A stretch of 64,000 bases of DNA, taken from the NCBI GenBank assembly GCA_025362975.1, contig JANYES010000014.1, positions 1-64,000 of the forward strand, written 5' to 3'. Source of the DNA: Alphaproteobacteria bacterium. GTDB taxonomy: Bacteria > Pseudomonadota > Alphaproteobacteria > Rickettsiales > SXRF01. Positions 23,945 to 38,399 of the stretch are shown here, piece by piece (positions within the stretch are counted from its first letter, which is position 1; every line of letters starts with the position of its first letter). The position numbers were made by a program, and so were the translations under genes. Below the pieces are notes generated by a model that worked only from the letters and a program-made list of their open reading frames with translations, ran no database searches and was not told where the DNA came from.

Positions 23945-24991
23945 TTAATGCTCGTGTTTAAGGTAGTCGCACAGACTCACCACGTGGTCGATCGGAGTAT
24001 GCGGCAAAATACCATGCCCGAGATTAAAGATAAAACGGTTATTCGCAAAAGATTTCTGGCCCAGTGTGGCGATAATTTTTTTCGCCTGCGCCATCATCGC
24101 GTCTTTGTCTTCGGCTAGCAAGATAGGATCGAGATTTCCCTGCACGACGCAAATCCGAGACAGATGCTCTGCCGCCCATGCCAGCTCCACCGACGAATCG
24201 ATGCTGATAGCGTCGACTTTTGTTTCTAGCGCGTATTTTTTATATTTAGTTCCGGCCATGCGCGGGAAACCGATGATGGGTAATTCCGGATGCGCTTGTT
24301 TGAGCGCGGCAACAATCTGCTTCGTCGGCTCGATGACGTAATCGGAAAATTCCTGTTCGCTCAAGACACCCGACCATGAATCGAAAAGCTGGATGACTTC
24401 GGCGCCGGCTTTCACCTGCGCGAGCGTATGGGTGATAACCGACACGGTGAGGAGTTTAAGCAAGCGGCTGAAAAATACTTTGTCCTTTTGCGCGAGTGTA
24501 CGCACCGATTGGAAATCTTTACTTGATTGCCCCTGAACCATGTAGCACGCAAGCGTCCACGGCGACCCTGCAAAGCCGATAAGCGTCGTCTCGATGGGTA
24601 AGCCTGCACGGGTAAGCTTCAACGCTTCGTAGACCGGTTCAAGCTTCGCAGGATTGTATACCAAGCTGTCCAGCTCCTGCTGCGTTTGAACGGGTACGAG
24701 GACGGGGCCTTTTTTTTCTTCAAAACGCACGTTCATGCCGAGTGCGTCTGGAATGACTAAAATATCCGAAAAAATAATCGACGCATCGAAACCGAAACGA
24801 CGTATCGGTTGCAAGGTCACTTCCGATGCTTTGGAAGGCGTGTAGCACATATCGAGAAAATTTTTCGTGTGGCTGCGCACTTCGCGGTATTCGGGCAAAT
24901 ACCTGCCTGCCTGGCGCATGAACCAGAACGGTGCCCGCGATATTTTTTCTTGCCTGAATGCGCTTAAGAGAAGCTTAGAATTTTTTTCCAT
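23945..24991 (-). CDS. hemE: Uroporphyrinogen decarboxylase
   Basis: 348-residue enzyme converting uroporphyrinogen III to coproporphyrinogen III. The N-terminal PFWFMRQAGRYLPEYR and GFAGSPWTLACYMVQG are diagnostic. First gene of the hemE-hemH-hemJ operon, transcribed away from the probable replication origin. hemE borders oriC in Caulobacter and Rickettsia. Confidence 0.97.
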   Translation of the reverse strand: MEKNSKLLLSAFRQEKISRAPFWFMRQAGRYLPEYREVRSHTKNFLDMCYTPSKASEVTLQPIRRFGFDASIIFSDILVIPDALGMNVRFEEKKGPVLVPVQTQQELDSLVYNPAKLEPVYEALKLTRAGLPIETTLIGFAGSPWTLACYMVQGQSSKDFQSVRTLAQKDKVFFSRLLKLLTVSVITHTLAQVKAGAEVIQLFDSWSGVLSEQEFSDYVIEPTKQIVAALKQAHPELPIIGFPRMAGTKYKKYALETKVDAISIDSSVELAWAAEHLSRICVVQGNLDPILLAEDKDAMMAQAKKIIATLGQKSFANNRFIFNLGHGILPHTPIDHVVSLCDYLKHEH

Positions 24992-25361
24992 ACTAATAAT
25001 ATAAAATATATATTTCTTAAAGGTGGTAGTAGTAGGGTTCGAAGTAATGAGGACAACTTTCCCTCCACCGGGTTATCCCCGCTGCCTTGGTTTAGCGGGT
25101 TTATTGTGGATAAAAAAGCAATAACTTGTCCAAAACCGTAAAAATAGATGCAAATAGCGCCAATCGGGTGCTATGAAACATGGGTATAAGTCGCTTCTTA
25201 GGAAAGTTATAACGCCCTGAGGATAGGCAAACTTACATGGGGATAATTGTTCGCCGGACCCCCGCATGGAATGGGATAATTTTTATCCATTTTTTATGCG
25301 GCGTTTCGTACAGGATTTATCCACAGCAAGATGCACAGATAGGCCAAGTTAGGAATAATTC
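24992..25361. other. Probable chromosomal replication origin (oriC)
   Basis: This 370-base interval between divergent hemE and ppsR holds no credible gene. It carries two perfect DnaA boxes: TTATCCACA at 25317-25325 (+) and its complement TGTGGATAA at 25105-25113. Weaker boxes are TTATCCCCG 25073-25081, TGGGGATAA 25238-25246, ATGGGATAA 25271-25279 and TTATCCATT 25283-25291; the last two nearly form a hairpin. An almost pure A/T stretch at about 24991-25020 could be the unwinding element. Gene strand bias flips here and the flanking genes match origin-proximal order in Caulobacter and Rickettsia. No paired TTAA-N7-TTAA (CtrA) site was found. Confidence 0.82.
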
Positions 25362-26207
25362 ATGAAAAAATTCAACCTCCACCTCGTCTCCGATTCCACC
25401 GGCGAAACGGTTTCTTCCGTCGCGCGCGCGGCACTCGTGCAGTTTGATGATTTGGAACCCGAAGAATTTAACTGGACGCTCGTGCGCACAAAGATGCAGA
25501 TGGAACGCATCATCGCCGCCATCGTCGCCAATCCCGGCCCGGTCTTATATACATTAGTTGATAACGGTTTGCGCGATATGCTGAAGCTCGAATGCGTGAA
25601 GCGCAACCTGCCGTGCATCTCGGTGCTCGGCACAGTGCTGAGCGAGTTGTCGACGTATCTTGGAACCGAGACGCACGCGTCGCCGGGCAAGCAGCACGAA
25701 CTCAATGATGAATATTTCCTGCGCGTCGAAGCGATCAACTACACCCTCGCCCATGACGACGGGCAGATGCACTGGGATCTGGAAGAGGCCGACATCGTGC
25801 TCGTCGGCGTGTCGCGCACGTCGAAATCGCCAACCTGTGTATACCTCGCTTATAAAGGATATAAGACGGCGAATATTCCTTTTGTGCACGGGGTGATGCT
25901 GCCGCCCAGCCTTGAGACATTGAAAAAACCGTTGGTGGTGGGGCTGACCATCAGCCCCGAACGCTTGCAGCAGATTCGCCGCACACGCCTGCAATCGCTC
26001 AACCAGCAAAACGACACCAATTATGTCGATATGGAATACATGCAGGCCGAGATCGCCGAATCGCGCAAGCTGTACAATAAGCATAGATGGCCGGTGATCG
26101 ACGTGACCAAGCGCTCGGTGGAAGAAACGGCGGCGACCATCATGCAGTATTTCAAAAAACATCAAGAAAAAATGGGAGCGGGCCCAGCTCGAAATGACAA
26201 TGCGTAA
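25362..26207 (+). CDS. ppsR: PEP synthase/PPDK regulatory kinase-phosphorylase (DUF299)
   Basis: 281-residue bifunctional regulator that phosphorylates (using ADP) and dephosphorylates a Thr of PEP synthase or pyruvate phosphate dikinase. The N-terminal HLVSDSTGETVSSVARA and the P-loop-like GVSRTSKSPT (residues 149-158) are characteristic, with HDDG at 131-134. AGGAAT lies before the ATG. It is the first gene right of the origin and overlaps aroE by 14 bases. The maf gene often found between ppsR and aroE is absent here. Confidence 0.95.
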   Translation: MKKFNLHLVSDSTGETVSSVARAALVQFDDLEPEEFNWTLVRTKMQMERIIAAIVANPGPVLYTLVDNGLRDMLKLECVKRNLPCISVLGTVLSELSTYLGTETHASPGKQHELNDEYFLRVEAINYTLAHDDGQMHWDLEEADIVLVGVSRTSKSPTCVYLAYKGYKTANIPFVHGVMLPPSLETLKKPLVVGLTISPERLQQIRRTRLQSLNQQNDTNYVDMEYMQAEIAESRKLYNKHRWPVIDVTKRSVEETAATIMQYFKKHQEKMGAGPARNDNA

Positions 26208-35739: not shown

Positions 35740-37484
35740 GCGACGAGCCGCATATTCCTAGAAAACCGGCGGGCACTCCCGACGACCCGTACGATCCGCT
35801 ACAGTATTTCATCTCGCTGTTCGATGGGCGCAAGGCATCCGAATCGGCGAAGAAACAACGCGCCGATACCATCGAAGGCGTGCTCAAGGAACGCATCGTC
35901 GACGGCGATAAAAAAGGCCTGGAAGACGATCTCGACACCGCGATGAAAACGCATCCGCCGCTGTTTATCATCAATGATATTTTGCTGGCGGGCATGAAAG
36001 TGGTGGGCGAGTTGTTCGGCGCGGGCAAGATGCAATTGCCTTTCGTGCTGCAATCCGCCGAGACGATGAAAAAAGCGGTATCACATCTCGAACGGTTCAT
36101 GGAAAAAATCGACGGCCAGCAAAAGGGCACCATTGTGCTGGCGACTGTTAAAGGCGACGTGCATGATATCGGCAAGAACTTAGTCGATATTATCCTGACC
36201 AATAACGGCTATAAGGTGATCAATCTGGGCATCAAGCAGCCGATTGCCAACATCATCACCGCCATCAATGAAAACAAACCCGATGCGGTGGGCCTGTCCG
36301 GGCTGTTGGTAAAATCTACCGTGGTCATGCGCGAAAACCTGCAAGAACTGACCCAGCTTGGCTTTAACCTGCCGGTGTTGCTCGGCGGAGCTGCGCTTAC
36401 GCGCGCGTATGTGGAAGAAGACTGCGTCGAAGCCTACGGCTCGGGGCGTGTGGCCTACGCGCAGGACGCATTCGACGGGCTGGATCTCATGAACAAACTT
36501 GCTGACGGCAAGTTCGACGAGCATCTGGAAGAAGCTAAAAAGCGCAAGCACAACCGCCCGAGCAACGCTAAAGCCAAGCAGCGCTGGTCGCAGAATGAAG
36601 TGGCCGCGCAGGATTTGATCGGCAAGGAACTGCGCCCGATGGAAGTCGAAGCGCTGAAGATCAAACGGCAGGAGCTGGCCAGCCAGGTGAGCGTGCCGAC
36701 GCCGCCTTTCTGGGGCTCGAAGATCATCGACAACGTGCCGATGCGCGCATTGATTCCGTATCTCAACGAGCAGATGCTGTACACCTTTCACTGGGGCTTT
36801 AAAAAGGCCGGCAAGACGCTCGAAGAGTATTGGAAATGGGTCGAGACGGATGTGAAGCCGATCTTGAAACGCCTGCTCGACGAGTGCGAAGCGGAAAATA
36901 TTCTGGAACCCAAAGCGGCTTACGGCTATTTCAAATGTGCCGCGCACAATAATGACATCGTTATCTTCGACGAAGCGGGCATCAAGGAAATCGGGCGCTA
37001 CGCGCTGCCACGGCAGGACAAGGACGGCGGCATTTGCGTGGCCGATTTCTTCCGTGATATCGACTCCGGCGAACGCGACGTTCTGGCCATGCAAGTGGTA
37101 ACCGCTGGGCAGAAAGTCGCGGATGTGGCACGCGACTGGTTCGCTAATAACCGCTATCAGGATTACCTGTATCTGCACGGGCTTGGCGTCGAAATCGCCG
37201 AAAGCCTTGCCGAGTTTATCCACAAGCGCATCCGCACCGAACTCGGGTTCGGCATCGAAGACGACCGCGATATCAAGAAGCTGCTCAAGCAAGGCTATCG
37301 CGGTTCGCGCTACAGTTTCGGCTACCCTGCCTTACCGCGCCTCGAAGACCAGAAATTGTTGCTAGAATTGTTAGGCGCGCAAAGGATCGGCATCGAACTA
37401 TCAGAAGAATTCCAGCTCCATCCCGAGCAATCGACCAGCGCCATTGTCGTGCACCATCCGCAGGCGAAATACTTCAATATTTAA
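35736..37484 (+). CDS. MetH-like protein with only B12-binding and reactivation modules
   Basis: 582-residue protein matching the C-terminal half of cobalamin-dependent methionine synthase. Residues ~40-125 are the four-helix cap, ~128-260 the B12-binding domain with the cobalt-ligand His in VKGDVHDIGKN, and ~300-582 the AdoMet-binding reactivation domain (ADFFRDI, YLYLHGLGVEIAESLAEF, GYRGSRYSFGYPA). The homocysteine and folate domains that form the N-terminal half of full MetH (~1200 aa) are absent, and the ATG overlaps the rhodanese stop, so this is not a frameshift here. The missing modules may be encoded elsewhere, or it serves another methyl transfer. Confidence 0.88.
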   Translation: MSDEPHIPRKPAGTPDDPYDPLQYFISLFDGRKASESAKKQRADTIEGVLKERIVDGDKKGLEDDLDTAMKTHPPLFIINDILLAGMKVVGELFGAGKMQLPFVLQSAETMKKAVSHLERFMEKIDGQQKGTIVLATVKGDVHDIGKNLVDIILTNNGYKVINLGIKQPIANIITAINENKPDAVGLSGLLVKSTVVMRENLQELTQLGFNLPVLLGGAALTRAYVEEDCVEAYGSGRVAYAQDAFDGLDLMNKLADGKFDEHLEEAKKRKHNRPSNAKAKQRWSQNEVAAQDLIGKELRPMEVEALKIKRQELASQVSVPTPPFWGSKIIDNVPMRALIPYLNEQMLYTFHWGFKKAGKTLEEYWKWVETDVKPILKRLLDECEAENILEPKAAYGYFKCAAHNNDIVIFDEAGIKEIGRYALPRQDKDGGICVADFFRDIDSGERDVLAMQVVTAGQKVADVARDWFANNRYQDYLYLHGLGVEIAESLAEFIHKRIRTELGFGIEDDRDIKKLLKQGYRGSRYSFGYPALPRLEDQKLLLELLGAQRIGIELSEEFQLHPEQSTSAIVVHHPQAKYFNI

Positions 37485-37664
37485 ACGCGCCGCGCTTCGT
37501 GCGGGAATAAGGATTGCCTACGTTTTTAGCGGCAAAAGCGTCGATGATGGCCAGCAAGGCTTTAGGCAGTTCTCTGCGCGTAATAGTGAGCGAGTAAATT
37601 TTGCTTCGCGTTGAGCGAGACGGGGTAGACGATGGTGATGCGGAGATTGGTTAACTTAGAATGG
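37485..37664 (-). other. Noncoding gap with possible coding remnant and a 20-bp repeat
   Basis: Between the MetH-like gene and comF, the minus strand has an open frame of about 55 codons without an ATG, ending RRELPKALLAIIDAF… and GAFKY. It may be the tail of a lost gene. The 20 bases at 37480-37499 (TTTAAACGCGCCGCGCTTCG) recur at 37795-37814 inside comF, in direct orientation, which suggests a local duplication or a small repeat family. Confidence 0.3.
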
Positions 37665-38399
37665 CTAATCCGCTTTTCGAGCTAAAGTCAGAACGTTAAC
37701 TTGCGCGGCGCCTGCTTTGAGCAGCGCCTTAGCGCATTCGCCGATGGTGGCGTGAGTGGTCATGACGTCGTCGATGAGAAGCACGCGCTTGTTTTTTAAA
37801 CGCGCCGCGCTTCGCGCAGGCACAAGGAACGCCCCACGGACGTTTTCCTTTCGCTGCCGACGGGTGAGGCCCGGCTGGGGTTTGGTGCGGCGCGTGCGCT
37901 TAACCGCGTCGGGAATGACGGGCAGGGCGCAATGTTTTTGCATGCTATACGCCATCGACGCCGACTGGTTATAACGCCTGCCGACAAAACGCCAGTAATG
38001 TAGCGGCACCGGCACGATCACGTCACTTTCTTGCGCCAATTCTTTGCCGAATCGCGCCAGCCATGCGCCGTAGATGGCGCTCAAATGAATCTGGTCGGCG
38101 TATTTAAGCTTGGTAACGAGCGCCCGGCTGGCATCGTCATAGCGAAACACCGAGCGTGCTTTGGCAAAAGCAGGCGGGGCCTGCATGCATCCGGCGCACA
38201 GCGCGCCCTTACCGAGGCTGTAATCGAACGGATGGCCGCAGCATTCGCAGTACGGGTCGGCGATGAAGCCCACCTTGCCCCAGCACTCCGGGCACAACGT
38301 GCCGTGGGTGGCCACCGTGAGCAGGCAGACGAGGCATTGCGGCGGGAACAACAGGTTGAGCAGCGGCGCGAGCATGGCGAATAAGGGTTTGGGTTTCAT
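37665..38399 (-). CDS. comF: ComF-family phosphoribosyltransferase-like protein
   Basis: 244-residue ComF homologue linked to DNA uptake and processing. The N-terminal zinc-finger-like region has Cys pairs (CLVC, CPEC, CECCG, CAGC), and the C-terminal phosphoribosyltransferase fold has the PRPP loop VLLIDDVMTTHAT. The segment PVPLHYWRFVGRRYNQ is diagnostic. comEC lies nearby on the other strand, which supports competence. Confidence 0.93.
   Translation of the reverse strand: MKPKPLFAMLAPLLNLLFPPQCLVCLLTVATHGTLCPECWGKVGFIADPYCECCGHPFDYSLGKGALCAGCMQAPPAFAKARSVFRYDDASRALVTKLKYADQIHLSAIYGAWLARFGKELAQESDVIVPVPLHYWRFVGRRYNQSASMAYSMQKHCALPVIPDAVKRTRRTKPQPGLTRRQRKENVRGAFLVPARSAARLKNKRVLLIDDVMTTHATIGECAKALLKAGAAQVNVLTLARKAD

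Follow-up and report, generated by a model that had tools for sequence, protein, structure and literature searches.

The question raised by this locus is whether the intergenic gap between hemE and ppsR works as the chromosomal origin of replication (oriC) of its host. The window, i.e. the whole stretch of 64 kb that was analysed, is part of contig C14 (81 kb) of genome G000, an assembly of 3.26 Mb in 28 contigs with 98% completeness. According to the gene set and the nearest relatives, the host belongs to the order Rickettsiales. The initial annotation had proposed a probable origin at this place. The proposal is supported by skew minima that fall at the orthologous gap of G023 and G111, the conserved synteny, the architecture of the DnaA boxes and an unwinding motif, the elements, their conservation and these minima being direct observations. 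On this basis, the probability that positions 24992-25361 are the working oriC in this genome was estimated to be about 0.88.

The hemE/ppsR gap and its DnaA boxes

The gap is 370 bp long and lies between divergent genes (Table 1). As had been stated in the initial annotation, it contains no gene. The switch in gene-strand bias claimed for this position was found to be real but local; it was clear on the left side of the gap, whereas on the right side + and - genes were mixed beyond secA. Contig C14 was collinear with G111, a genome of the same genus, across ~70 kb around the gap. The genome sample of the order also includes single-contig genomes with a record starting at ppsR.

Table 1. Coordinates of the features in and beside the hemE/ppsR gap (window positions).
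Feature	Position	Strand	Basis and remarks
hemE (uroporphyrinogen decarboxylase), left origin border	23945-24991	-	NCBIfam TIGR01464, 392 bits
A/T-rich stretch, likely DNA unwinding element	24992-25021		28/30 A/T; relatives also A/T-rich at this place
DnaA-trio GTGGTAGTAGTAG, three TAG (3'-GAT-5' in the direction away from the boxes)	25023-25035	+	unique, no second exact copy in G000; conserved
Weak DnaA box TTGTCCTCA with 2 mismatches, spaced 12 bp from the trio	25048-25056	-	sequence; comparable sites in relatives
DnaA-box-like TTATCCCCG, 2 mismatches	25073-25081	+	sequence, TTATCC core
Perfect DnaA box TTATCCACA	25105-25113	-	sequence; perfect-box count in genome
DnaA box TTATCCCCA with 1 mismatch, forming the left half of the inverted pair conserved at 79-80 bp	25238-25246	-	sequence; spacing kept in family
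DnaA-box-like TTATCCCAT, 3 mismatches	25271-25279	-	TTATCC core
DnaA-box-like TTATCCATT, 2 mismatches	25283-25291	+	TTATCC core
Perfect DnaA box TTATCCACA, forming the right half of the same inverted pair	25317-25325	+	sequence; spacing in family
ppsR (PEP synthase/PPDK regulator, DUF299/COG1806), right origin border	25362-26207	+	NCBIfam NF003742, 339 bits

The two perfect boxes in opposite orientation and the four near matches reported before were confirmed. Together they provide six TTATCC cores from 25073 to 25325, two in the perfect boxes and four in imperfect ones. The adjacent A/T run, having 2 G/C in 30 positions, was found as described. The number of perfect boxes in the whole genome (3.26 Mb) was determined to be 29, therefore, by our own arithmetic, pairs within 213 bp should number ~0.06 by chance. 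Two such pairs were actually present, the one of the hemE/ppsR gap and another at C20:26865/26971, which was rejected because of its location inside coding sequence. Within the 1.96 Mb of G000 that were scanned (60% of the genome), 260-bp windows with six TTATCC cores were detected only in the gap and at C24:519. The latter was rejected because its cores all belong to one strand and come from Pro-Asp-Asn codons repeated within a large ORF. On C24, L138 1-1010 is predicted to encode a large protein in which long tandem repeats, proline-rich or of the LPDN / MYDS type, were observed. In the mismatch-weighted ranking, the gap was the top box cluster of the scanned 60% and the sole intergenic cluster of its kind. 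Across the whole 64 kb window, the number of boxes with one mismatch was 10 compared with 7.75 expected, i.e. there was no enrichment; the box signal is the clustering and not the overall number of boxes in the window.

The orthologous gaps from 20 other genomes of the order were used for comparison. The divergent hemE/ppsR layout was the same in most family members, and the gap lengths across relatives were mostly 260-400 bp. An inverted pair of boxes (up to one mismatch each) upstream of ppsR with a spacing of 79 or 80 bp was present in 9 of the 13 gaps of family f1, G000 included. When the whole gap was aligned with MAFFT, the result was poor except at the trio and the boxes. The gap of G023 (L014) was 1040 bp long, ~700 bp beyond its relatives, with all boxes on the hemE side, as if DNA had been inserted between them and ppsR.

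In family f5 and G103, ppsR has moved away from hemE and the perfect boxes are still located just upstream of hemE. The perfect boxes of G046 were found at C27:38182 and 38425 beside hemE (37051-38040), and those of G103 are represented by a box at C44:1539, together with a trio at 1832, beside hemE (1870-2889). As the boxes remained at hemE after the departure of ppsR, the origin stays with hemE. In family f5 (L024, L025, L030, L032, L036, L039), ppsR follows a ParB-like gene and does not face hemE.

GC skew in the relatives and in this genome

In G023, a genome of the same family, the cumulative GC-skew minimum of C5 (380 kb) was located 166 bp from the ppsR start, and that of G111:C13 (320 kb unmasked) lay within hemE, ~65 bp from its 5' end. 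In both genomes, the fourfold-site skew changed its sign at the gap on + and - genes separately. A usual origin-side marker is provided by parS-like sites. Three of these were detected in G111 on the same contig, 164 kb from the gap, and the parS-like sites of G000 were on C13, a contig collinear with the matching part of G111.

In the GC skew, the check suggested in the initial annotation, the minimum was thus seen at the orthologous gap of G023 and G111; in contrast, the skew of the fragmented genome G000 itself had no minimum at the gap on C14, and V-shaped points were present on other contigs. On C14, the skew was positive on both sides of the gap and reached its maximum at 38.4 kb. The values per 20 kb after the correction for coding-strand bias (-0.134) were +0.16, +0.06, -0.12 and -0.17. 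The fourfold-site skew of the other contigs changed sign several times, its blocks ranging from +0.3 to +0.6 and from -0.3 to -0.5. This patchwork was seen on C4, C15, C16, C20 and C24, in contrast to the smooth V of G111. V-shaped skew points were determined on C4, C15 and C20, for example near 83 kb of C4 and near 371 kb of C15, and no origin-like motif set was found at such points where scanned (1.96 Mb). The patchwork may be caused by rearrangements, several initiation zones or bin problems. In our reading, the preference for C in the codons of expressed genes accounts for a part of the C14 skew, but not for the large blocks elsewhere. A reversed skew, with the leading strand being C-rich genome-wide in G000, was rejected because C13 has the expected sign. 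The patchy skew without a minimum at the gap is the main reservation on the origin call in G000; the two mismatches of the weak trio-proximal box and the missing IHF consensus also count against it. The skew minimum elsewhere, named in the initial annotation as evidence against the origin, keeps some weight for this genome.

It is improbable, in our estimate, that the chromosome of G000 no longer starts, or no longer starts only, at hemE/ppsR, the origin having been relocated or initiation taking place in several zones. If true, this would explain the patchy skew with its sign changes, compared with the single V at the gap in the sister species. Just as small a chance is given to the gap being a relic of the ancestral origin with the origin job moved to another locus in this species. 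The own skew without a minimum at the gap and the sign changes on C4 and C15 agree with such a relic, but the boxes, the trio and their spacing were intact and similar to those of the sister genomes, and the scan of 1.96 Mb gave no motif set equal to that of the gap. The dnaA neighbourhood was also rejected as an origin: dnaA is located on C26 behind rpsT, with no box cluster in the stretch scanned.

The DnaA-trio block and the proposed opening of the origin

The trio block was overlooked in the initial annotation and is, as judged by the sequence comparison, the most conserved element of the gap. Its three TAG occupy positions 25027-25035 and are read, in the direction away from the boxes, 3'-5' as GAT-GAT-GAT. 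The spacer between the trio and the weak box TTGTCCTCA is 12 bp, and the A/T-rich stretch lies beyond the trios. According to the published rule for the BUS, at least three NAN trios, the best of them GAT, are read 3'-5' away from a DnaA box that has up to two mismatches and is located 0-16 bp from the trios, the spacing peak being at 10-13 bp (PMC8287927). The three GAT trios and the two-mismatch box at 12 bp were both within this rule. The trio and the weak box are accordingly described here as a BUS-like unwinding module, putative as to strand opening.

The sequence GGTAGTAGTA within two mismatches was detected in the trio orientation in 18 of the 21 gaps, compared with 3 on average and 7 at most in the shuffles (n=100); on the opposite strand it was detected in 2 of the 21. 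With a trio-plus-box matrix trained without G000, the gap ranked first in 1.96 Mb, scoring 27.9 bits vs 23.7 bits for the next site. The trio-proximal site of the relatives was CGGGGATTA or TGTGGATAA-like near the same place, often CGGGGATTA. Trio-like matches 1.8 kb from ppsR in G006 and G017 were considered to be chance, because they are located beyond hemE. In most gaps, the trio block was 14-54 bp upstream of the hemE start. Just right of the trio, an inverted repeat (e.g. GGGGAT-N8-ATCCCC) was determined with summed stems of 86 vs 72.1 ± 3.3 in the shuffles, none of 200 reaching this value. A dyad of DnaA half-sites of the GGGGAT-N8-ATCCCC type was kept after the trio in L011, L013, L018, L027, L029 and L035. 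The same half-site dyad was degenerate at window positions 25048-25070.

The short distance to hemE in nearly all relatives, the trio block remaining at hemE in G103 and the conserved inverted repeat following the block would also fit a regulatory element of the hemE leader RNA in the CTACTACTACCAC/hairpin block, with the boxes regulating the transcription of hemE and ppsR and not replication. This explanation is rated somewhat below the relic and is quite unlikely; the skew minima at the gap in the relatives and the lack of an Rfam match stand against it. In L029, furthermore, the trio block was 125 bp from hemE and still directly beside two tandem DnaA boxes, and this position speaks for an element of the origin rather than of the hemE leader. 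Although single boxes with one mismatch are common (746 in the genome), it is hardly credible that DnaA-like words have clustered by chance in an A/T-rich spacer, as the gap was the top intergenic cluster of the part scanned and the position, orientation and spacing were kept across genera.

For the working origin, the order of binding, melting and helicase loading is most likely analogous to that found in the BUS experiments in other bacteria (PMC6669920, PMC8287927). DnaA would first occupy the strong boxes 25105-, 25317+ and 25238-, and the assembly would then grow to the left as far as the weak box (25048-25056). Starting at this box, DnaA would extend along the single strand bearing the TAG trios, resulting in the melting of the A/T-rich stretch on the hemE side, where the helicase would be loaded. 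The replication forks would then depart in both directions.

Control sites and comparison with known origins

The CtrA sites (TTAA-N7-TTAA) and the IHF consensus (WATCAN5WTR) were searched for as defined in PMC1914354. CtrA sites were found neither in the gap nor in most of the family gaps, which agrees with the lack of recognisable paired CtrA sites stated in the initial annotation. The IHF consensus, which is usual but not defining for hemE/COG1806-type origins, was absent from the gap, and so were GANTC sites. Direct control by CtrA or IHF at canonical sites in the gap is not supported by its sequence. Since CtrA sites have already been described as scarce in several Rickettsiales origins (PMC1914354), the absence of canonical sites is no surprise. 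The description of the gap as closer to a simple DnaA-driven origin was reasonable; the genome nonetheless encodes a CtrA ortholog at C15:167556-168227 (414 bits vs the NCBIfam cut-off of 350), so CtrA may have a part in the cell cycle even though the gap lacks canonical sites. A ctrA-bearing lineage without canonical CtrA origin sites bears on the gain or loss of CtrA replication control.

With the origin call, the start of replication and hence the replichores are fixed for a Rickettsiales family that is represented here by metagenome-assembled genomes. The hemE-type origin was also seen to carry a conserved DnaA-trio unwinding motif in several families of the order. In kind, the oriC is an ordinary, DnaA-driven origin of the alphaproteobacterial hemE/COG1806 type with a BUS-like module added, i.e. 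a known kind of system.

The origin of Caulobacter crescentus, Cori, is flanked by the same genes, hemE and COG1806. The gap resembles Cori in these flanking genes, in the DnaA boxes and in the CtrA encoded by the host. In contrast, the CtrA/DnaA overlap of the Caulobacter kind is absent here because there are no TTAA-N7-TTAA sites in the gap, and an assignment to the Caulobacter-type CtrA-controlled origins would not fit its sequence. The flanking genes of the Caulobacter origin serve as the model in PMC1914354, where hemE/COG1806 is accepted as the border of the Rickettsia origin, in accordance with the earlier remark that origins beside hemE are known in this genus. The predicted Rickettsia origin at hemE/COG1806 (RP001) is similar to the gap in its divergent borders, A/T-rich intergenic gap, DnaA boxes and taxonomic order, whereas it has two to several CtrA sites (PMC1914354) and the gap has neither a canonical CtrA site nor the IHF consensus. 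In comparison with the BUS of Bacillus subtilis and Helicobacter pylori, the trio-proximal box of the present putative module is weak, with 2 mismatches, and the relatives often have CGGGGATTA instead; the at least three GAT trios, the box 12 bp off and the A/T-rich stretch beyond are alike.
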